The notes under the pieces: generated by a model
Told to the model about the DNA's origin: nothing
What the model saw: the letters and a program-made list of their open reading frames with translations, nothing else
The model's database searches: none
Position numbers and translations under genes: made by a program
Shown here: piece by piece, positions 335 through 28,907 of the stretch
Layout of the letters: each line of letters opens with the position of its first letter
Numbering within the stretch: position 1 is the first letter of the stretch
Source: a virus
Virus record (IMG/VR): IMGVR_UViG_3300025647_000177
Coordinates: 1-30,247 of that record
Direction: 5' to 3' (one strand)
Length of the DNA: 30,247 nt

Positions 335-997
335 ATGAGGGTCAAACTCAAAGGGCGTAGCGCGCAATTAGCGCGGCCTGAGATACAGTTTCAAATTTGG
401 CAACAGCTCACGCTGCAGAAGGGCCTAAGGCGCAGTTTTCGCGTCGAAGGCGCACAAGGTGAGGTGATCTTAAATCATCAAGACACGCCATCAAAGGTCA
501 TCGATCTGATCAAAGCGCGGACCGCACCACAAACCCCGCTCAATTATCGAGGAGAGGTTGACGTGATCAAAGAGCTCGCCTCAGAGATGAGCACGCTGCA
601 CAAGGCGCGCGTGAGCTCACTCATGGATGAGATCGAGAGTATCTTTGAGGGAGATCTTGAAAAGGGATTCCGCCCCCCCGCGAGCGTAGCACGAGAGGCC
701 GCGAGAGGTCTTGAGCTGAGACGCGAACACGGGCGCGGAGGACTGAGCGCGAAACAAGCGAGCGAGCATGGCATAGGCTCAGGAGTACAACGCGCGGTGA
801 ATTTGAAAAACCGCGATGAGTTGAGCCTTGAGACAGTCAAGCGCATGAAAAACTTCTTTGGCCGACACCGCACCTATAAAGAGCGCGGATATCACCGAGA
901 CCGCACAAGCGCAAGCTATATCTCATGGTTATTATGGGGTGGCGACGCGGGCGATAAATGGGCTCAAAAAATTGTCACACAGGAGAGTAAAAAATGA
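335..997 (+). CDS. Head-cluster protein with C-terminal WLLWGG-type phage domain
   Basis: The protein is about 220 aa. ATG at 335 is preferred because GAGAGG at 321-326 lies 8 bases upstream; a GTG at 326 overlapping the previous stop would add three residues. The C-terminal 80 residues carry a pattern I associate with tailed-phage head-region proteins: a Gly-rich segment, then LSLETVKRMKNFFGRH, then SYISWLLWGGDAGDKWAQKI. In other phages this module is found alone or attached to head-region proteins, and its function is not established to my knowledge. The N-terminal half is charged and helical (KELASEMSTLHKARVSSLMDE) and is not recognised. The stop overlaps the next ATG as ATGA, so the two genes are probably translationally coupled. 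Confidence 0.75.
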   Translation: MRVKLKGRSAQLARPEIQFQIWQQLTLQKGLRRSFRVEGAQGEVILNHQDTPSKVIDLIKARTAPQTPLNYRGEVDVIKELASEMSTLHKARVSSLMDEIESIFEGDLEKGFRPPASVAREAARGLELRREHGRGGLSAKQASEHGIGSGVQRAVNLKNRDELSLETVKRMKNFFGRHRTYKERGYHRDRTSASYISWLLWGGDAGDKWAQKIVTQESKK

Positions 998-3390
998 CGT
1001 GGAATCTAGCGCAGACTATGAGCATGATCAAAGCGGCTCAACATAAATACACATATCGAAAGATGATCGGACGCGACCCCAAAACAAACCGCATCCGATA
1101 TCGCTATTATTATGCAGAGCACCACGGAGGCGGGATCACAGGCGCGAGCTTTGAAGAGGGAAGCGCTTTTAAGCTCACATACAAAGGGCGCCGTGGACAC
1201 TTCCATATCAAGAGCGTAGAAGGTGATATGGTCACAATCTCACACGACGCGCGGCCAAATATGGAACCTGTAACCATTTCAAAAGATGAGCTCAGAGCGA
1301 TCTTAGAGAAGCAACATGGAGCAGCGGAGACCAAGAGCAGAGAAAAGGCACAGCGCAAGCGCAAGACCGCACCGAAGGCGCAACAAACAGAAACACAAGC
1401 TCCAAAGATAGAGCGCATGAGCACAGCGGAGCGTAAAGCGCTTGATAATGATCTCGCAAAAGCTTTGCGAGACAATGATCCTGAGACAGCGCATGAGCTC
1501 ATCAAAAAAGACCAAATCGACTACGCGCAGAGCGGCGACAGCGCGGCAGACAAGATCTTTAGAGAGCTTATCAGCGCGGGCGAGGTTGAGACCTTCGATG
1601 ATGGAACAAAGAGCATCATCTCACAAGGTAAGCTCTCAGGAGATCAGCTCAAGGCACTAGAAGACGCGGCTAAAAAGGGATTGATCGAAGGAAGAGATCA
1701 GGGAGAGCTTAAAGTTTACTCGCTCAGTAGCTCCAAAGATAAAGACCGCTCTCTATCTATGCTTGTTAGAGGAGATGGACGCGCACAACTCAAGATCGAG
1801 GACTTTAGACCGCCGAATGATAGAGACCAACGCGCTATACCAGAAGGTGAAGATCTTAGGCCACCTGTAGCAAAATCAAAGCTCGATGAGCATTTACAAG
1901 CAATTAGAGATTTGATCAAAGCTAACCCCACGCTAGCCAATGACCCTAAGGTGATCGCGCTACTTGGCTCACAGACACAGCCAAAGCGCGAAGGGCGAAG
2001 CGATGAGATGTTTCTCACCATCGATGGAAAAGAGCGCAAGGCTGAGTTCAGATATCAGTTGATTGAGGCGGGCGACGCGATCCCCTCACATGATCCGGTG
2101 AGCTTCTCAAAGCGCGAGGACTACCCCGAAGGGATCCAAGAGCGCATCTATCACCAAGACCGCATGGAGCAACTAAAAGTACAACGCAACGCGGGCAGCG
2201 CTTATGAACCTAGCTATTTGATCAACACGAACCCTGACGCGACCAACGGCCCGCCAATCGTGACACCCGATGGAATCGTCTTAGGTGGAAACTCCCGCGT
2301 AATGAGCACTCAACTAGTACACATGAGAAACCCTGAAGGCGCGAAGCGCTACAAAGAAAAACTCTCTCAAGACGCGGCGATCTATGGATTCACTCAAGAA
2401 GACATAGACGCGATGAGCTCGCCTATGCTTGTGAGGGTGTACGAGCCCGAACAGACAGACCGCGCACACATGGCAAAGCTTGTACGCGCCATGAACGAAA
2501 ACAAAACTCAGGGCATGGATGAGCGAACAGCAGGACGCGCCGCTGCTGCTAAAGTCTCTCAACAGACACTCAAGACACTCCAACGCGGCCTTGATAGTTT
2601 TCAAGGATTCAGTTTTAACCGCTTCATGACACGACCAAGCAACGCCCTGAACGCTTTCAAAGAAGCGCTCTTCAAAGATGGTATACTAAACGCTCAGAAC
2701 ACAAGCCAACTGATCAGAACACAAGATGGCACATTCACTGCGACGGGCCGCGAATTCATGCAATATATGTTGGTTGGTTATGTAGTTAATGATGATCGAC
2801 TACTACCAAACCTCGATTATGCGACAATGGAACAGCTCACAGTGAGCTTAGGCAAACTTGCCGCCGCAGGTGTTGGCGAGTCGGAGCGAAAGAGTTTACA
2901 AAATGCTATTGCTATTTACAACAATGTGATCTCGCGCGATCTACTACCCCAAAAGGGTAAGGATATCATCAGCAAGCGTAATAGTGCGGTCGATATGGTC
3001 ATGTTAGAGGAACAGGAGCTAGCTTATGCAAGCGCAGGCGCGGAGGGAAGTGAAAGCGATGATCTGAGCGTCTCAAAGATACCTATCGGGGAGGTAAAAG
3101 AACGCGTGAGAAAAGATCCTCTCGCAAGCGCTTTCTTGAAAATCCTCACGCTTAATCCGGGCAAGGCCACGCTTGAAAAGACCATCGAGCGTTTTATCAA
3201 GCTAACCGAGGACACAGGGCAATCATCAATGTTTGGGGGGGATGAGGCACTAGATTACTCTGAGGCAGCGAACAAGATAGCGGGCGAGCTCGCGAAAGAG
3301 CACAACATCGAAGCGCGACTCTATGAGCTACCTGAGAAGGCGAAGAAATCCTCACCTCTACTCGATCTCTATAAGGCGCTCAGATGTTAG
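994..3390 (+). CDS. Large head-cluster protein with DdrB-like ParB-superfamily domain, 798 aa
   Basis: Residues 1-45 form a basic, Tyr-rich segment (RIRYRYYYAEHH) of a kind found in phage virion-associated proteins. Residues 110-145 are a Lys/Arg/Gln-rich linker. Residues about 353-500 match the DdrB-like ParB-superfamily domain: YQLIEAGDAIPSHDP, then DYPEGIQER, LINTNPDATNGPPIVTPDG, and the signature GIVLGGNSR at 428-435. The remaining 300 residues are mostly helical, like the part that follows this domain in its relatives. The name comes from phage P1 DdrB, part of the Dar system in which internal head proteins injected with the DNA protect it from restriction. Here the gene lies between head genes with start/stop overlaps on both sides, so an injected or head-internal protein is a reasonable inference. 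The start has a good ribosome binding site (AGGAG about 8 bases upstream). No helicase or methyltransferase motif is visible, unlike large DarB-type fusions. Confidence 0.8.
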   Translation: MTWNLAQTMSMIKAAQHKYTYRKMIGRDPKTNRIRYRYYYAEHHGGGITGASFEEGSAFKLTYKGRRGHFHIKSVEGDMVTISHDARPNMEPVTISKDELRAILEKQHGAAETKSREKAQRKRKTAPKAQQTETQAPKIERMSTAERKALDNDLAKALRDNDPETAHELIKKDQIDYAQSGDSAADKIFRELISAGEVETFDDGTKSIISQGKLSGDQLKALEDAAKKGLIEGRDQGELKVYSLSSSKDKDRSLSMLVRGDGRAQLKIEDFRPPNDRDQRAIPEGEDLRPPVAKSKLDEHLQAIRDLIKANPTLANDPKVIALLGSQTQPKREGRSDEMFLTIDGKERKAEFRYQLIEAGDAIPSHDPVSFSKREDYPEGIQERIYHQDRMEQLKVQRNAGSAYEPSYLINTNPDATNGPPIVTPDGIVLGGNSRVMSTQLVHMRNPEGAKRYKEKLSQDAAIYGFTQEDIDAMSSPMLVRVYEPEQTDRAHMAKLVRAMNENKTQGMDERTAGRAAAAKVSQQTLKTLQRGLDSFQGFSFNRFMTRPSNALNAFKEALFKDGILNAQNTSQLIRTQDGTFTATGREFMQYMLVGYVVNDDRLLPNLDYATMEQLTVSLGKLAAAGVGESERKSLQNAIAIYNNVISRDLLPQKGKDIISKRNSAVDMVMLEEQELAYASAGAEGSESDDLSVSKIPIGEVKERVRKDPLASAFLKILTLNPGKATLEKTIERFIKLTEDTGQSSMFGGDEALDYSEAANKIAGELAKEHNIEARLYELPEKAKKSSPLLDLYKALRC

Positions 3391-4406
3391 TTTTAGACGC
3401 AGAGCGCCGGACGCGCCAAAGCATCATCGATCATTATGACGCGCTCAGTGTCGAGCTTTTAGGCGCTCGCGCTTCGGGCCTTTCTCGTGAGCGTATCGAG
3501 GCGCTAGTGCGCTCAGGTCGCTTAGACGCTGATCAGCTTAGGGGATATGACGCGGGACTCGATGAGCCAACTAACCCGATCCTCTTTATCAGGCTTATCG
3601 GTACACCATACGCGCGCGCCAATCCTGAAGAGCGAGCGCGCATGAGGACATGGAGCCTTGAGCAGTGGAGACAGAGATTGACAGGGGTCAATCAGCGAGC
3701 GCCACGCTTGATTCCACCGTCAACGATGAGGACACAGCGACCACCGAGCGAGCACGCGCCACCGCTACCACCGAGCCCGCGCGCAATACCTGAACACTTC
3801 ACAGCAGCAGAGCGCGCGGGAGTTGTCAGCGCTTTCGAGGTCGCAGGATCATATATCAGAGGACTCGGCGCGCGCTTCGCAGATGAGGCAAGCGCTCAGA
3901 TCTTTGAAGATTGGAACGGTGAGAGGCTGCTAGACACACCCGACCCCGCGAGACGCGCAAGGATGCTCAAGATCATCAGGGAAGAGGTGGGAGCAGCGAC
4001 ACTCACAAAAGATCAAGCGCGAGAGGTTGCGAGGCGCATTAGACAGCGCTCAGGCGACCTCGCGCGTAACTTTGAGAGGATCGCAGAAACAGAGCTCCAA
4101 GCAACCCACAATGAAGGACAGATCGCACAGGCTGTAGAGCTTGACGGCGAAGACGCGCGAGTAGCGCGGATTCCTGAGAGTGGCGCTTGTGGATATTGTA
4201 CGCGCGCTTTCATCGACCCTGAGACACAGCGACCATATATTTTTAAGGTCGCTCAACTCATCGAGAACGGGACTAATATTGGTCGCAGGCGTGCAGATTG
4301 GCGCCCTTCACTTTATCCTATGCACCCTAACTGTCGGTGTGATACAATCCCTGTTAGCCCCTCACAGACAGTAAGCCGTAGCGGGCGCTTGGAGGCGATC
4401 ACATGA
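3384..4406 (+). CDS. Mu F-like minor head protein (head morphogenesis)
   Basis: This 340-residue protein resembles the phage Mu F / SPP1 gp7 minor head protein family, which associates with the portal during head assembly. The conserved C-terminal block is clear: a helix ending ERIAETELQATHNEGQ (about 231-246), a CGYC pair at 269-272, and HPNCRC at 314-319 followed by DTIPV. The four cysteines and the histidine probably bind a metal. The N-terminal part has helices, then a Pro-rich linker at about 106-136. The start lies 7 bases inside the preceding gene and its stop overlaps the next ATG as ATGA. The position before the protease, scaffold and capsid genes is classical for this family. Confidence 0.88.
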   Translation: MLVLDAERRTRQSIIDHYDALSVELLGARASGLSRERIEALVRSGRLDADQLRGYDAGLDEPTNPILFIRLIGTPYARANPEERARMRTWSLEQWRQRLTGVNQRAPRLIPPSTMRTQRPPSEHAPPLPPSPRAIPEHFTAAERAGVVSAFEVAGSYIRGLGARFADEASAQIFEDWNGERLLDTPDPARRARMLKIIREEVGAATLTKDQAREVARRIRQRSGDLARNFERIAETELQATHNEGQIAQAVELDGEDARVARIPESGACGYCTRAFIDPETQRPYIFKVAQLIENGTNIGRRRADWRPSLYPMHPNCRCDTIPVSPSQTVSRSGRLEAIT

Positions 4407-5098
4407 GATTAGATCTGATCAAAGCAGAGATTGATAAAGACTCACCGAATACCGCGAAAATAGCGGGCGTAATCTCGACCGATGAAGTTGATTTACAAGG
4501 CGAGCGAGTCTTACAAAAAGGTTTAGATTTTAGCTACTTTCTCAAGAAAGGTTGCTTTAACTATGAGCATCAATCAGGCGCTCAGAACCTGCTAGGCTAT
4601 CCAACGAAAATCACACAGCGCAAGGGATATACTGAGGTCGAAGGAGTGTTGCTCTTAGACAAGCCTAAAGCGCGTGATATCTTCGAAACAGCAAGCGCAA
4701 TGCGAAAAGCGGGAGGACATCGAACGCTAGGTTTTAGCGTCGAGGGTCAGGTGATCGAGCGCGACCCAATGAACCCTAAAATAGTGACAAAAGCCAAGGT
4801 GATTAATTGCGCAATCACGAGCAACCCAATCAACCCTGACACATCACTACAGCTCATCAAAAGCGTGAGCGCTTGGCTCCAAAAAGGGTCAGTGGGCTAT
4901 CAGACGCCAAGCCAAATAAACGGTCAATCCATCGCGGGCTTGATCCCGCAACAACTAGACAGCACAGTTAATGCGAGCTATAACGCCTTGAATGATGAGC
5001 GTTTAGCGGCTATAATCACCAAATTATCAACTTTATACCCCAATGTCGAACGAGGCGCGCTAGCCCGCGCCGCCGCTGAATTATCAGGAGTTATGTGA
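4403..5098 (+). CDS. Prohead protease, XkdF-like (herpesvirus-protease fold)
   Basis: A 231-residue protein that likely processes head proteins during capsid maturation. Conserved features are VISTDEVDLQGERVL at 23-37, a candidate catalytic His in NYEHQ (His56), the candidate nucleophile Ser in GFSVEG (Ser112), and KVINCAITSNPINPDT at 132-147, all typical of XkdF-like and HK97-like (S78) phage proteases. The core ends near residue 155. Residues 157-216 form a tail that closely resembles the N-terminus of the major capsid protein encoded 850 bases downstream, sharing LQKG[S/T]VGYQTP and L[I/V]PQQL. This tail may dock the protease in the prohead, mimic a processing site, or be left from an old protease-capsid fusion. 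GGAGG lies 7 bases before the ATG. Confidence 0.85.
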   Translation: MRLDLIKAEIDKDSPNTAKIAGVISTDEVDLQGERVLQKGLDFSYFLKKGCFNYEHQSGAQNLLGYPTKITQRKGYTEVEGVLLLDKPKARDIFETASAMRKAGGHRTLGFSVEGQVIERDPMNPKIVTKAKVINCAITSNPINPDTSLQLIKSVSAWLQKGSVGYQTPSQINGQSIAGLIPQQLDSTVNASYNALNDERLAAIITKLSTLYPNVERGALARAAAELSGVM

Positions 5099-5100
5099 TC

Positions 5101-5667
5101 ATGCAAGATCTCATCAACATGATGAAGAGCGCGGGAGTCTCTGAGGAGATCGCTTTGCAGCGCGCTTCAGAGTATCTTCGCGACCAAGAAGACACAGACC
5201 GCTTTGAAAAGGCGCTTACTGCTCTCGATGGAGTAGCAGAAGCCCAACGCGAAGCCGAAGAGGCGCAATATGAGCGCATGAGTAAAGCCTTTAACGATGG
5301 TCAAGAAACCGTTGCTGAAGCCCTCGCGCCTGCTCTTGATGCACTCTTGACCGAGCAACGCGCACAAAATGAGGCTCTCTGTAAAGGTCTTCAAGGCGCG
5401 CTTGAGCTCATCAAATCCCTAAAAACAGAGGTGAAAGCTTTACGAGGCAACACTTCAAATCATGTTGAGCCGATGGCTAAGAGTGTATCATACATCCCCG
5501 CCCCCGGAGAGACATCAAGCGCGGACACATCACGCGACGATTTATTCAAGGCACTCAGCTCAATGACTGTCAGCGACCCACAGCGCGCAGGTGAGATGAT
5601 GGAGGCGGCGGCGCTTCTTGAGTCTGGCGCTGATCCATTATCAATCAAAGCCCGATTCGGCATCTAA
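5101..5667 (+). CDS. Probable capsid scaffolding protein
   Basis: This 188-residue protein is highly acidic and helical, with a long predicted coiled coil at about 30-115 and a short basic end (SIKARFGI). There is no membrane segment or enzyme motif. Size, composition and position between protease and major capsid genes fit a scaffold that guides prohead assembly and is then removed; this is inferred from context rather than a sequence signature. ATG at 5101 is preferred because AGGAG at 5086-5090 is 10 bases upstream. A GTG at 5095, overlapping the previous stop as GTGA, is only 4 bases from that site. A hinge rich in Ser, Pro and Thr (YIPAPGETSSADTS) divides the coiled coil from the C-terminal helices, a layout common in scaffolds whose end binds the capsid protein. 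Confidence 0.7.
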   Translation: MQDLINMMKSAGVSEEIALQRASEYLRDQEDTDRFEKALTALDGVAEAQREAEEAQYERMSKAFNDGQETVAEALAPALDALLTEQRAQNEALCKGLQGALELIKSLKTEVKALRGNTSNHVEPMAKSVSYIPAPGETSSADTSRDDLFKALSSMTVSDPQRAGEMMEAAALLESGADPLSIKARFGI

Positions 5668-5679
5668 GGAGTAATAGAT

Positions 5680-7119
5680 ATGCAAGGCATCCCATCAAGC
5701 GCAGATATGGCGGCCCTCATGGGCTCACTTCAAAAGGGTACAGTAGGCTATCAAACACCTCTCGTCCCTCAAGGTGGATCACAGACCGCCGCGAACCTTT
5801 CACCTCTTGTACCTCAACAGCTAGCGCAAACTTTGAGCATTGCTACTAGTAGCATGAACGATCTTAAGCTTTGGCCTATGCTCGCTAAGGTACAGGCTCA
5901 GAATACCATCGTAGAATATAATCGTGTGCTCTCTCATGGTGGACAGCATAGCCCCTTCATCAGCGAGGGCGGCAACGGTATCTTGAACCGTAGCACCTAT
6001 GAGAAGGTAGCAACCAAAATCCGCTACATGGCCGAGCGCCGCGAGGTCACTGATCAAGCGTCTATGGTCTCTATCGTTGGACCTAGCGCTGATGCTATCG
6101 CAGAGGAGACTCGACGCGGTACTGAGAGCCTCTTACAGCGCCTTGAGCTCAACCTCTTCCATGCTGATGAGAACAAGGATTCTAACGCTTTCAACGGTAT
6201 CATTAAGCAGATCAGCGACGGCGGAAACGTTGCAGATCTTCGTGGTGCAGCTCCAAGCGCTGTGTATCTCTCTGAGATCCTCGGTGCTCTCTACAGCGCG
6301 CCTTTTTATGGTATGGTCACTCATATCATGGTAACACCGCGCGTTCTCTCTGAGCTCATCAAGCAGACCGTACACCACGGGCGCCATGATCAAATTCAGG
6401 TGAACAACGGTTCAATCACTTTCGGCGCGGCGAGCCTCTCAATCACCGGTCCTTATGGTCCTGTACAGGTTGTTAGCGCACCGTTCCTTGAGCGTCATGA
6501 CCGCATCGCGCCTGCTCTTGGGTCTGGTTCTGTCTTTGAAGGATCTCTCGCGGCTCCAACTGTTCAAGTTGCAGCAGCAGCAGCGCCTAACGCTGCTTCA
6601 AAGTTTGTCGCAGCGGATAACGGTGACTATATCTATCGTATTGTAGCTGTAGGCGATAACGGAATCAGTGTACCTGTTGATACTGCCGCTGTTACTGTTG
6701 CGGCGGGTGATCAAGTGACCTTCACCATCCGTCACGCATCACACGCAAATGTTAAATATCTCCGTGTCTATCGTAGCGCGAAGAACGCAACGAGCGCAGA
6801 TGGCGCGCTCTTGATCGATGAGGTAAAAGTCACCGCTCAAGATACCGTGATCACTGACAATAACGCGAATATTCCGGGGGCAAGTGAGATCCTCTTCCTC
6901 AACTTTGCACCTGATTATATGTGTTATTACCAAATGTTAAGCCTTGTTCGCCGCCCGCTCGCTCAAGTATCTACAACCTTTCCATTCTTGCTCATGATGT
7001 TCGGCGCGCCTGCTGTTAAGCTTCCGCAAAAGATGTTCGTGGTCAAAAATGCAGGCGTGAACGCGAGCTCAGGTCTACAGAGCGTGAGTGATACATCTCT
7101 CTTAGGTCTTCACATCTAA
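5680..7119 (+). CDS. Major capsid protein (SPO1/jumbo-phage type, Ig-like insert)
   Basis: A 479-residue protein that forms the icosahedral shell. It follows the order of the SPO1/Twort and jumbo-phage capsid family: a hydrophobic arm with LVPQQL (43-48), LKLWPMLAKVQAQNTIVEYN (62-81), FISEGG (93-98), then a positively charged strand region RYMAERREVTD and the helix ESLLQRLELNLFHADEN (149-165). An Ala-rich linker (VAAAAAP, 297-303) leads to an Ig/FN3-like insert at about 295-398 (NGDYIYRIVAVGDNG ... YLRVYRSAKNA), which would project from the capsid surface and is known in relatives. The last 80 residues return to the shell fold. AAGGAG lies 8 bases before ATG. The N-terminal arm is homologous to the tail of the protease. 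Confidence 0.9.
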   Translation: MQGIPSSADMAALMGSLQKGTVGYQTPLVPQGGSQTAANLSPLVPQQLAQTLSIATSSMNDLKLWPMLAKVQAQNTIVEYNRVLSHGGQHSPFISEGGNGILNRSTYEKVATKIRYMAERREVTDQASMVSIVGPSADAIAEETRRGTESLLQRLELNLFHADENKDSNAFNGIIKQISDGGNVADLRGAAPSAVYLSEILGALYSAPFYGMVTHIMVTPRVLSELIKQTVHHGRHDQIQVNNGSITFGAASLSITGPYGPVQVVSAPFLERHDRIAPALGSGSVFEGSLAAPTVQVAAAAAPNAASKFVAADNGDYIYRIVAVGDNGISVPVDTAAVTVAAGDQVTFTIRHASHANVKYLRVYRSAKNATSADGALLIDEVKVTAQDTVITDNNANIPGASEILFLNFAPDYMCYYQMLSLVRRPLAQVSTTFPFLLMMFGAPAVKLPQKMFVVKNAGVNASSGLQSVSDTSLLGLHI

Positions 7120-24583: not shown

Positions 24584-25023
24584 CAACAGCGCTTCGTATC
24601 ATTACTACTTGTTTACTTTTGATTCTTATTTCTCTTTCACTTCGCGCGTGCTCGCCTCCGCCCGACCCGCGAAGATTCAGAGAGTCTAAGGAATTGGAAG
24701 AATCAGATGAGGAGTCAGACCCCCGCGCAGAGATCCTGCATGAGCTCGTCATGCTGCGCGACGAGATGCAGCTTAACCATGCAGACATCATCTTCACAAC
24801 GATGGACATTGAAGAGGGTCTACTGCACGATATGGACCCCGTAGTCATCCCGCATTTCCTCAAGGCCCTTGCGCCAGAGACGAGAGCACCAAGCCTCAGC
24901 CAAGATTGGAAGATCGGGCACAAATGGCTTGATCCCCTTGAGCATGAGACGTGCGAGCTCATCAGCGGCAGCGGGCGCCCGCGAGAGCTCGACCTCACAA
25001 ATTATCTCATCGTGGATAAATAA
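24580..25023 (+). CDS. Putative lipoprotein (o-spanin-like), overlapping the polymerase gene
   Basis: A 147-residue protein with a signal-peptide-like start: positive charge, hydrophobic run CLLLILISLSL, then RAC at 22-24, where Cys24 could be lipidated. Arg at -2 is unusual for a lipobox. An acidic segment follows (ESKELEESDEES). Position after an i-spanin-like gene suggests an outer-membrane spanin. The last 204 bases lie antisense to the polymerase gene on the other strand, covering that gene's catalytic HDE motif. The two codon registers coincide, so that each codon is the exact reverse complement of a polymerase codon. The frame may simply run on because this phage seldom uses Leu and Ser codons that give stops on the opposite strand. 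Confidence 0.55.
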   Translation: MTTALRIITTCLLLILISLSLRACSPPPDPRRFRESKELEESDEESDPRAEILHELVMLRDEMQLNHADIIFTTMDIEEGLLHDMDPVVIPHFLKALAPETRAPSLSQDWKIGHKWLDPLEHETCELISGSGRPRELDLTNYLIVDK

Positions 25024-26682
25024 TACCGGACGCGCACCATAGAGCGGGCTCTTAGGTTCCATCCATGAAGCGCGGACGACATCATAGAGCGCACTCTTCG
25101 CACCATCGGCCACAAGGCCCTGAAAATAGGTGTTAGCACCATCTGTGAAACCGACACCGCCGCGCCGGCGCCCGCTGTAGTGTTGGATGATATGGCCCAC
25201 ATTGACGCGCTCTTTTATATGATCGAAGTAACCTCGCATCTCAGGCCAACGAGCGAACCAAGCGCGCTTGAGGTCTTCAGCTTCTTTCTCAGTGATCGCC
25301 AGATCATAGCCACTTTTCGCGAACGCGACAAGACCGCCCGCACTAAGCCCTCCCGGTAGACCAAAGTTAGGCACTTTTGCAAGTTTGCGGAGCTTGAGTA
25401 TTTGTTTATCTTTTGCGGCCTTGAGCTCAAGAGCGCGCTCATAAGTCACGCCCGCAAGATCAGCAGCGAGAGCAAGATGCAGATCTTGACCTTGCGCTAT
25501 AGCTTGCGCCATCTTTGAAGAAAGACCAAGGTTTAAGCATACTTGAGCAAGTGCCACTAACTCGGCTGTGGAATAGTCCGCGCCGATGTAAACGCACCCC
25601 TCACGAGGTCTAAAGCACTCTCTCACACCACCTTCTTGTGGTAGTTGCTGTAAATTGGGCTTCGTACAGCTAGTCCGCCCCGTTCTCACAAGCACATTCC
25701 ATCGAGGGTTGAGCGGGCGCTCTGTGGCGCTTTCAACTGTTGGGCCAAATGTTCCTGATAACTTATCTAATTTCATCCATTTAGCTAGGCTCTTAAGAAT
25801 CGGTTCTCCGCTCTCCTCTAATACTTCACTTGATGTCTGTACGGCGCCTTTTTCGGTGCGTGGTGTGTCTTCTCCATAACTCGCCTCGATCACTGCTTTG
25901 ATCGCGCTCATGTTGCGTTTACCATCGGCCTTGAGTAAACCGAATTCCACAAGCTCTCGTTCAAGTTTAGTTCGCTCTGCGGTGAGCTCATCGCGCCAAG
26001 ATTCAACGCTCTCTGAGCTTGTTCGTAACCCCCAAAGCTCAAGATGATGAAGCGCCCATGCTGCGCGCGTTTGGATGTCATAGCTCGCGAGGTAGCGATA
26101 AGGCCCGCGCGTGACGTGCTCTACGTTCGTGAGTCTCTCTTGTTGCGTTTCAAAGATTTGGTGCGTGATCCTTGCATCTTCTAGCGCGTATTCTCTCGCC
26201 TCTTCTGACCATTGATCGAGAGGTACATCAATAAGCTTACCGTACTGATAGCGCGGGCTCTTCGGGTCTAGTTTTTGATCAGAGATATCGATCCCAAGCA
26301 AGCCTCTTGCGAGTTGAGCGAGGCTTACTCCTTGTGAGATGATCGGGCGCCCTATCTCAGGGTGTTGTGTCCATCCATGATAGAGTGCATATAAACGCTC
26401 ATGTATACCTGTGTCCCATACACGCCCGCGATCATATAAGCGCCAAATTGGAGCCGCTAAAGATGGTCGATGGCGTATGATCACCGCGAGGTCAAAAGCA
26501 ATATTATGACCGATTAACCAACCTTGATCGAGCCTTACCCATTTCTCGATCAGATCACACCCATCATCAGGGCTCAAGAGTTGGTGCGCGTGTCCATCGC
26601 TCGCGCTCATGCACGCTATGAGAGGCGCCTTACGCCCTTGGCCTATGAGCTCCGTTTCACAATCGATTGTTAAGTTTTTCAT
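24820..26682 (-). CDS. Family A DNA polymerase with 3'-5' exonuclease
   Basis: A 620-residue replicative polymerase. The proofreading domain is complete: IDCETE (Asp7, Glu9), GHNIAFD (Asp64), and YALED (Tyr165, Asp169). Polymerase motifs follow in order: RTGRTSCTKPNLQQLP (333-348), motif A YIGADYSTAEL (Asp369), motif B RKLAKVPNFGLPGGL (432-446) and motif C FIHDEI (His557, Asp558, Glu559). Motif B has Phe440 at the position that discriminates against dideoxynucleotides, and Gly444 where E. coli Pol I has Tyr766; an NFGxPGG form is familiar from other phage polymerases. It is the last gene of the leftward operon, and its 3' end overlaps the lipoprotein gene head-on. GGTG just upstream is only a weak ribosome binding site. 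Confidence 0.95.
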   Translation of the reverse strand: MKNLTIDCETELIGQGRKAPLIACMSASDGHAHQLLSPDDGCDLIEKWVRLDQGWLIGHNIAFDLAVIIRHRPSLAAPIWRLYDRGRVWDTGIHERLYALYHGWTQHPEIGRPIISQGVSLAQLARGLLGIDISDQKLDPKSPRYQYGKLIDVPLDQWSEEAREYALEDARITHQIFETQQERLTNVEHVTRGPYRYLASYDIQTRAAWALHHLELWGLRTSSESVESWRDELTAERTKLERELVEFGLLKADGKRNMSAIKAVIEASYGEDTPRTEKGAVQTSSEVLEESGEPILKSLAKWMKLDKLSGTFGPTVESATERPLNPRWNVLVRTGRTSCTKPNLQQLPQEGGVRECFRPREGCVYIGADYSTAELVALAQVCLNLGLSSKMAQAIAQGQDLHLALAADLAGVTYERALELKAAKDKQILKLRKLAKVPNFGLPGGLSAGGLVAFAKSGYDLAITEKEAEDLKRAWFARWPEMRGYFDHIKERVNVGHIIQHYSGRRRGGVGFTDGANTYFQGLVADGAKSALYDVVRASWMEPKSPLYGARPVLFIHDEIICEVELSRAPAAADELARLMLKGIKPFVPDLPILAEAWCSRLWRKGLEEMRDDYGVHIVQ

Positions 26683-27230: not shown

Positions 27231-28907
27231 TTAACGTGTTCCTTTTATCGTGATATCAGCCAACGCGGATAAAACGTGTGAGCAGTGTCTATATAACGGG
27301 TGAGAGCTCTCTATCGTTACAATATTTTTCGAGAAGAGCCAAACTTTTTGACTCGCGAGTCGGGCGCCTAGTTGCTTCCACCCCTCATCATACTGAATTA
27401 ACGAGATTGGCTGATTGTGGCGCCGCTCGATGTCGGCTATCCACGGCGCGAGCTCTGTTAAGAGATCTGCACTCTCTCCTATAGAGCATAGCGCATCTAC
27501 ACATAATATTGTAGATGGTGTGTGATATTGGCTTGTCGGCTCTATGTCTTCTTCAGCTGTTGCCTCAGCGCCGTCTATACCTGCTTGGATCCATGCTTTT
27601 TGACGATGCGCTGAGAATATATCTTGTACTTCTTGTACTTCTTCTTGCACTTCTTCTTGTACTTGTTCTTGTACTTCTTCTTGTACTTTTTCTTGTACTT
27701 GTTCTTGCACTTTTGCGGATGCGTTAAACGCTGCAAAAAAATCATCTTGGCTCATTGTAGGTGTCTCTTTCGGTGTGTCTGTGATCCCGTATGTGATTTT
27801 GTGAAGGATTTCAAGGCGCTCACGGTTTGCGCTCATGGTGTCTCGTGTCAAATGTGCCGTTTGGCTCTCATACGTTGCGCGCGTCTGTGAGCTCATGATC
27901 GTTGTGAGCTCGTGGATCGCTTCGATAAGTTCAGGTGCTTTCATCTGAGATAGGCTCTTGTCATTCCATCTAAAACGAGGTAAGCGGCGCGCGGGTTGCT
28001 GATCTTCGGGCAAGGGTTCGCGGTCGGGTAGTCCATCCGGTGGGTTCGTTTGCTCGTATGCTGCACCCCTCAGATCTAACTCATCATCGATTTTAAGCGC
28101 TGGCCTGTCTTCGATGATGATCACTTTAGATGATGTCTCACCTCTGAGCGCGCTCATGAATGAGCTCACCTGAGCTTGTGAGGGCTCCGCTACCTGAATC
28201 AAAGCGCGCTGCGCTTGCGTGCAGTCATCGCGAAAAAAGCAACCACCGTATTTATCACAGCTCTGATAGTTGGGTTCGACCTCTGACCACTGCAGGGCGC
28301 TCGATGTCTCCTTTTGCTTTGCGACCTCCTTACCTATACGCGCTAGCGGTTCGCTGAGTTGAGCGCGCGTGAAGGTGCGGCTCACGAGCGCTGTCTTGAC
28401 TGCGCCTCGCGTTGTACCGTAGCTTAGGACAAATCTAAGCGGTTCACTAAACTCAATACCTAGCGCGCCACTCAACGCTACCGCGCTGTAAATGATCGCC
28501 TGAGTGTCTGTGGCTAGATCCTGCTCGTTTTTTGCATAGTCAAGTGTCGCGGTTGTCTTGTGGTCGATGATCTGATTCGTGGTAGGGTCGATTAGATCAA
28601 TACGGCCTCTCACTCGCGCGACCCATCCGGGAGGTGCAATGTCGAATGACTGCTCAACATGATCAGGGCTCACGCTACCGCCGGGGGGTAAGTGTCTGAG
28701 CATCGCGCGCGCTGTGCCGTCTGTCGGCGCGATCCCGTTCATTAACCACTGCTCGATTTGCTCATGTACGCGCGTTCCGCGCTCCGCTGCTGGTGAGCTC
28801 GGCGCGCGCTCTCCTAGCACGCTCTCACGATACCATTTGCGCGCGCAATCTCGGAAAGTTGAGATTTGGCTAGGGCTCGTTGAGCTCCATTGTTTATGCT
28901 CAGTCAT
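27231..28907 (-). CDS. Cas4/RecB-type PD-(D/E)XK nuclease with Fe-S cysteines and extra C-terminal domain
   Basis: A 558-residue protein. Residues 1-240 form a RecB/Cas4-like nuclease: SQISTFRDCARKWY with Cys21, RGTRVHEQI with His48, GRIDLID with Asp104, IIDHKTT with Asp115 and Lys117, and QAIIY with Gln136 and Tyr140. Cys217, Cys223 and Cys229 (SCDKYGGCFFRDDC) with Cys21 give the four-cysteine pattern that holds an iron-sulfur cluster in Cas4 and AddB. It probably trims DNA ends during phage replication or recombination. Residues 240-399 are a linker, 400-428 a tandem repeat of VQEE-like tetrads, and 430-558 an unrecognised domain (LLTELAPWIADIERRHN, YDEGWKQLGARL). No cas1 or cas2 lies nearby, so a CRISPR role is not supported. 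Confidence 0.82.
   Translation of the reverse strand: MTEHKQWSSTSPSQISTFRDCARKWYRESVLGERAPSSPAAERGTRVHEQIEQWLMNGIAPTDGTARAMLRHLPPGGSVSPDHVEQSFDIAPPGWVARVRGRIDLIDPTTNQIIDHKTTATLDYAKNEQDLATDTQAIIYSAVALSGALGIEFSEPLRFVLSYGTTRGAVKTALVSRTFTRAQLSEPLARIGKEVAKQKETSSALQWSEVEPNYQSCDKYGGCFFRDDCTQAQRALIQVAEPSQAQVSSFMSALRGETSSKVIIIEDRPALKIDDELDLRGAAYEQTNPPDGLPDREPLPEDQQPARRLPRFRWNDKSLSQMKAPELIEAIHELTTIMSSQTRATYESQTAHLTRDTMSANRERLEILHKITYGITDTPKETPTMSQDDFFAAFNASAKVQEQVQEKVQEEVQEQVQEEVQEEVQEVQDIFSAHRQKAWIQAGIDGAEATAEEDIEPTSQYHTPSTILCVDALCSIGESADLLTELAPWIADIERRHNQPISLIQYDEGWKQLGARLASQKVWLFSKNIVTIESSHPLYRHCSHVLSALADITIKGTR
27624..27710 (-). repeat. 12-base tandem repeat coding for VQEx tetrads
   Basis: Six tetrads VQE followed by Glu, Gln or Lys, then VQE and VQD, are encoded here by near-identical 12-base units (CTTGTACTTCTT type on the + strand). 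The unit length is a multiple of three, so gain or loss of copies keeps the nuclease frame. Silent and single-residue differences between units show it is not a fresh expansion. Confidence 0.85.

Follow-up and report, generated by a model that had tools for sequence, protein, structure and literature searches.

The C-terminal tail of the prohead protease matches the N-terminal arm of the major capsid protein across a group of SPO1-like and Twort-like phages and their relatives, and in four of the five lineages compared the tail and the arm stayed matched while both changed. This matched change suggests that the tail helps to bring the protease into the half-built shell. Going by the sequences, we lean toward reading the tail as a detachable imitation of the capsid arm, one that would dock the protease in the prohead and would carry its own release site.

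The stretch of DNA analysed here, hereafter the window, is a 30-kb IMG/VR fragment (30,247 nucleotides) with an SPO1-like gene order: minor head protein, protease, scaffold, capsid, further head genes, sheath and baseplate (Table 1). The top Foldseek matches of the protease model are herpesvirus proteases (assemblin; probability about 1.0, E 1e-4), which gives the enzyme the assemblin fold, and the conserved H56 and S112 would, by analogy, be its catalytic His and Ser. Against Pfam PF04586 (S78) the window protease scores 17.3 bits, under the cut-off of 21. The preliminary description had labeled the protease XkdF-like; this identity is not supported, as PF14550 has no match in the window record (a Bacillus subtilis control was positive) and the family matched is instead phrog_1028. 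The best Foldseek match of the capsid model is the SPO1 capsid 9vel (E 6.5e-29), and profile and fold both place this capsid in the SPO1/Herelleviridae type. Homology of the C-terminal helices of the window protease to HK97 gp4 was also considered, and profile comparison gives it no support. Directly 5' of the minor head protein gene, and within the head cluster, lies a gene (994-3390, + strand) for a 798-aa protein with a ddrB-like ParB domain (PF18763, E 3e-14). The replication genes run opposite in direction to the head and tail genes; a DNA polymerase-like gene (24820-26682, - strand), which covers only positions 670-1232 of the 1445-position phrog_17, adjoins an exonuclease gene (27231-28907).

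Table 1. Features of the protease-scaffold-capsid region of the window (a slash between residues marks a predicted cleavage site)
Feature	Position	Strand	Basis
Prohead protease gene, 231 aa	4403..5098	+	phrog_1028 E 4e-43; herpesvirus-protease fold
Protease catalytic domain, residues 1-150	4403-4852	+	H56 and S112 invariant in 46 aligned sequences
First candidate self-release site K153/S154, directly after the catalytic domain	4859..4864	+	K153 invariant in 46 proteases; inferred
Capsid-arm-like block of the protease tail, residues 159-208	4877..5026	+	BLASTP; shuffles; low AF2 confidence at residues 154-196
Parts of the capsid-arm-like block in the protease: site block LQKGSVGYQTP and helix-like block LIPQQL...			
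Second candidate self-cleavage site K161/G162	4883..4888	+	Inferred by homology with Kayvirus capsid K24/S25
Two-helix C-terminal piece of the protease, residues 199-228	4997..5086	+	AF2 pLDDT about 74-85 at residues 201-230
Scaffold gene, 190 aa	5095..5667	+	Position between protease and capsid; 9/10 lysines then S/A/G
Scaffold candidate site PMAK129/SVSYIP	5479..5484	+	Scaffold site most like LQK/GSVGYQTP; inferred cleavage
Major capsid protein gene, 479 aa, HK97 fold of SPO1/phi812 type	5680..7119	+	phrog_752 E 1e-63
Predicted capsid propeptide, residues 1-19, removed at K19/G20	5680..5736	+	Homology: Kayvirus K24/S25, SPO1 A24
Capsid N-terminal arm matched by the protease tail, residues 17-71	5728..5892	+	BLASTP; shuffles; dN/dS

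In the window phage, protease residues 159-216 align with capsid residues 17-79 at a local score of 98, compared with a maximum of 59 in 1000-5000 shuffles, and BLASTP recovers the pair at E 1e-8 with 22/55 identities over a common segment of ~55 residues. The homology of tail and arm claimed in the preliminary description thus holds, and the outcome that was to count against it, an alignment no better than that of shuffled sequences, did not occur. Its second block, L[I/V]PQQL and the residues that follow, aligns too, with a score of 56 when taken alone and a shuffle maximum of 45. In the first block, LQKG[S/T]VGYQTP, the earlier count of at least seven silent codon differences proved exact: at 4877-4909 against 5728-5760, 7/10 shared residues (L, K, G, V, Q, T and P) differ silently, three (Q, G and Y) have identical codons and S/T is the sole replacement. 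A six-frame scan of the whole window found no VGYQ and PQQ motifs outside the protease and capsid genes. Both the tail block and the capsid arm are predicted to be disordered in isolation (residues 154-196 of the protease have low AF2 confidence), which fits a segment that folds on a partner.

To survey relatives, proteases and capsids were called in fetched loci by catalytic-domain and capsid-body profiles, which contain neither tail nor arm. The resulting 95 non-redundant pairs come from the window family, Twort-like, SPO1-like and Dolphis-like phages and one small group (L190-193). Tail and arm match at p<1e-3 in 92 of them. Some locus scans used arm residues, and arm conservation is possibly over-sampled in those groups; tails were not used in those later scans, and two patterns of the first protease scan do fall in the tail. 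Examples are Moonbeam (MKSYLTGFGISPETQTDAAALRTES in the protease, SKSFTTGFGITPQTQTDAAALRRE in the capsid), Dolphis (KALEASYATDAAAKTGGAALGMRSLDTG and KALEASNYQTDVSQLEGGGALGIQSLDTA) and L191 (KALTAGQSIANPGAAPGAGFPLRSESL and KALEAGSDINSPGTAAGEGFPLRVESL). The match is strong enough for a purely sequence-based PDB search with the A5W protease to retrieve the capsid of that phage (E 1e-6), and a profile of the capsid arm only retrieves proteases with a best E per group of 4e-8 to 4e-18. No third protein with the block was found by this profile, the other six matches being truncated protease ORFs. Among the 95 pairs, the search for homologues without the block yielded one clear case, Bacteroides phage DAC19 (L054), where it is apparently absent, and two pairs (L195 and L197) where it is weak or partial at best. 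The genome contigs searched contained no relatives with a window-family capsid. The full texts searched do not mention the match; much of the work on SPO1, A511 and phage K is published by subscription, and earlier authors may have noted it.

Several of these loci carry an altered protease gene. The tail is a separate short ORF, as if by frameshift or interruption, in L106 (3110-3448), L093 (449-778), L090 (3160-3444) and L091 (1628-1912), where sequencing error is possible. In phage SPO1L1 (L062, 3924-4532) the protease frame stops early within the tail (KKPVICDG, then a stop) and the remainder of the tail is in another frame, through either frameshift or sequence error. Phage Grass (L060, 3270-4224) has a full protease frame with an arm-like tail that is unannotated in its record.

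Tail and arm resemble each other lineage by lineage. On core segments, the tail-arm score within a lineage is 87-111, compared with 19-55 when tails, and 18-74 when arms, of different lineages are scored against each other, and the own tail-arm score lies above tail-tail plus arm-arm in 10/10 between-lineage comparisons. Uncropped sequences give the same pattern in nearly all comparisons; the exceptions are SPO1-like versus Twort-like and SPO1-like versus L190-193, where some between-lineage values come near the own scores. In a joint tree, built from 64 columns and with some long branches, the tails and arms of one lineage group together for the window family (100/100), Dolphis-like phages (99/100) and L190-193 (100/99), Twort-like tails and arms fall into two sets, and the tails of SPO1-like phages are dispersed. 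The AU test rejects a tree in which all tails make up one clade (p-AU 0.004). The matching extends within lineages: own pairs beat permuted pairings on cores in four groups (p 0.0014 or less), and in L190-193, with n=4 genomes, the excess is not significant (p 0.08). With uncropped sequences, the own-pair excess holds in the Twort-, SPO1- and window-like groups and is gone in the Dolphis-like group (p 0.27), so the finer matching is not demonstrated there. The controls, tail versus capsid body and catalytic domain versus arm, gave no own-pair signal within lineages, and one Dolphis control (protease end versus arm) gave a weak one (p 0.005).

The first block of the match is very probably a processing site, lysine followed by S, A or G. 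In the Kayvirus capsid structure (PDB 9row) the deposited chain begins at S25, after K24, with the protease alignment reaching residue 1 of this chain; in the SPO1 capsid (9vel) the longest listed chain has 445 residues, which corresponds to A24 to the end, the N-terminus being read from chain length. Both capsids thus start just after the first lysine of the shared block. The pair KS is enriched 2.6-4.7-fold in scaffolds and not in the capsid body, and in the window scaffold 9/10 lysines precede S, A or G (binomial p 1e-4), compared with 0/14 in the mature capsid. The shared processing site proposed in the preliminary description is strongly supported for this block by the mature capsid starts of relatives and the enrichment in scaffolds. 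The catalytic domain shows a K[SAG] excess as well (K then A or G ~3-fold in the window family; protease 4403-4852), and there these pairs may be later self-degradation sites or may simply reflect structure. Applied to the window, the K/[S/A/G] rule predicts cuts at K19/G20 in the capsid and at K153/S154 and/or K161/G162 in the protease.

Three other explanations for the match were weighed. The main rival to docking is a pure substrate or self-inhibitor role: the same protease cuts both segments, which share an extended recognition region, and the tail is perhaps a built-in inhibitor of the active site until assembly is complete. A lysine at P1 and a small residue at P1' in the tail and arm of almost every genome, the enrichment of this pair in scaffolds and the mature capsid starts of relatives all fit such a role. 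We nevertheless consider it unlikely as the whole explanation, since the match reaches ~45 residues past the cut (E-x-L, LTY and PQQL positions), beyond the reach of a protease cleft, the part past the cut is also under strong purifying selection, and the scaffold, which is rich in such sites, has no arm homology beyond the short MAKSVSYIP motif. When scaffold homology was sought directly, the capsid arm gave that motif and nothing further, and the protease C-terminal remainder gave none in any group.

The remaining two explanations need no present function. Repeated DNA copying (gene conversion) between the genes would account for the nesting of tails among arms in three groups of the joint tree, and two genomes offer hints of it. 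In L036 (4686-5414, 6001-7452), a long-form insertion is common to the protease tail and the capsid arm (LSTPRPSSAGYQTP and LDLPRPTNAGYQTP), which hints at old copying or matched change; L009 and L015, unlike L036, have this insertion in the capsid only. The L223 tail has an arm-like form, KALEASNYQTDVASLTGGGAIGMQSLD, with 14/22 identical codons against 7.7 expected, possibly a recent copy from capsid to protease. In closely related genomes, a nucleotide tract of one gene carried by the other was seen only as these two hints. Against copying, codon identity at residues identical in tail and arm equals the codon-usage expectation in 5/5 groups (0.42 versus 0.40 in the window group). These figures give no sign of recent DNA copying; any that took place would be old, and selection would have preserved the peptides since. 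The dN/dS values of the window family, which are rough because synonymous sites are near saturation, are about 0.05 for the site blocks of tail and arm (0.046 in the capsid arm), about 0.09 for the downstream helix blocks (0.086 in the capsid arm) and 0.166-0.218 for the neighbouring tail and linker; all blocks together span 0.046-0.089. Codon test and dN/dS together support the earlier claim that the peptide is held by selection rather than by recent copying; old copying followed by selection on the peptides is possible, with L036 and L223 as the best hints, and copying with no functional need is improbable. We give slightly less credence still to a functionless relic of an old duplication or of a protease-capsid fusion later split by the scaffold gene, as suggested in the preliminary description. 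The homology of tails and arms and the order protease-scaffold-capsid, in which the scaffold gene separates the two copies, speak for it; the own tail-arm scores and the rejection of a single tail clade reject a single origin followed by separate evolution, and the low dN/dS of the blocks also counts against a relic. A fusion relic is insufficient alone because tails and arms cluster by lineage, although a duplication may have occurred long ago in the common ancestor of the group, with selection keeping the copies matched afterwards.

Docking, by comparison, best explains the second block and the lineage-specific matching. This block lies ~10-45 residues downstream of the cut, too far to be a cleavage site, and is under purifying selection and matched by lineage. 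In other phages that use a separate scaffold, the N-arm of the procapsid shell protein forms a helix that lies along the backbone helix and touches the end of the scaffold (PMC12749128). An SPN3US protease without part of its C-terminal propeptide is active, yet the proheads appear protease-free (PMC7411985). Together, these observations make docking the most likely function. The docking by mimicry raised in the preliminary description therefore stands as the best account of block 2 and lineage matching, while the physical contact is something we infer. In this model the first half of the tail would be a K/[S/A/G]-hydrophobic site, as cut in the capsid and, many times, in the scaffold, and the second half would copy the part of the arm that in other procapsids touches the backbone helix and the scaffold. 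During assembly the tail would occupy an arm-binding position on capsid subunits or scaffold, and the protease would be built into the prohead. Once enclosed, it would cut the capsid at K19/G20, the scaffold at its K/[SAG] sites and itself at K153 and/or K161; the catalytic domain would be freed, and the tail would either stay behind or be lost as small peptides. A shared binding partner would impose selection that keeps tail and arm matched while both change. Counterpoints to docking are that HK97, T4 and SPN3US load their proheads with protease in spite of having no match of this kind, and that the block is apparently missing in DAC19 and weak in L195 and L197.

Known systems share parts of this arrangement. 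Herelleviridae (SPO1, Twort, phi812/A5W and P100) have the same gene order, a homologous protease and capsid and the tail-arm match found here; they differ in that the window-family block (KGTVGYQTP...LVPQQL) has no detectable pairwise match to the blocks of other lineages. HK97 gp4 resembles the window protease in having AAMK-S after the catalytic domain, and NK103-S104 in HK97 gp5 is the known cut. HK97 has no separate scaffold, however, and its gp4 tail scores against gp5 at the shuffle mean (p 0.44); pairwise comparison finds no tail-arm match in T4 or SPN3US either. The prohead protease gp245 of the giant phage SPN3US has a self-cleaved C-terminal propeptide of 64 residues, and mutant data led to the proposal that this propeptide directs the enzyme into the prohead (PMC7411985, PMC10052503). 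Its length is close to the 70-78 residues whose removal is predicted here, but the gp245 tail is unlike its capsid protein and is cleaved at a T4-like motif, not K/small. T4 internal proteins carry N-terminal capsid targeting sequences of 10-20 residues that bind the scaffold core and are cut by the prohead protease (PMC7411985). These, too, are short, are removed and serve to load proteins into the prohead; they are N-terminal and not copies of the capsid arm, whereas the window block is C-terminal, about 50 residues long and arm-like, and thus falls outside that class. The T4 protease tail has no match to gp23, unlike the window pair.

To our knowledge, how an assembling phage shell picks up its few dozen protease molecules is known only roughly (HK97, T4, SPN3US). 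More tentatively than for the tail itself, and at somewhat less than even weight, we propose that in a whole branch of tailed phages the protease may enter the prohead posing as a capsid subunit, that this disguise may have co-evolved with the capsid lineage by lineage, and that the docking peptide may begin with its own self-release site. If so, docking and timed release would be united in one mimic. The sequence signal seen here, shared with the shell protein and matched lineage by lineage, offers a direct, testable answer for SPO1-like and Twort-like phages, and K followed by S, A or G is a simple cleavage rule that predicts the mature ends of head proteins. The arm-like block may also be a ready-made natural tag for directing proteins into heads of this kind.
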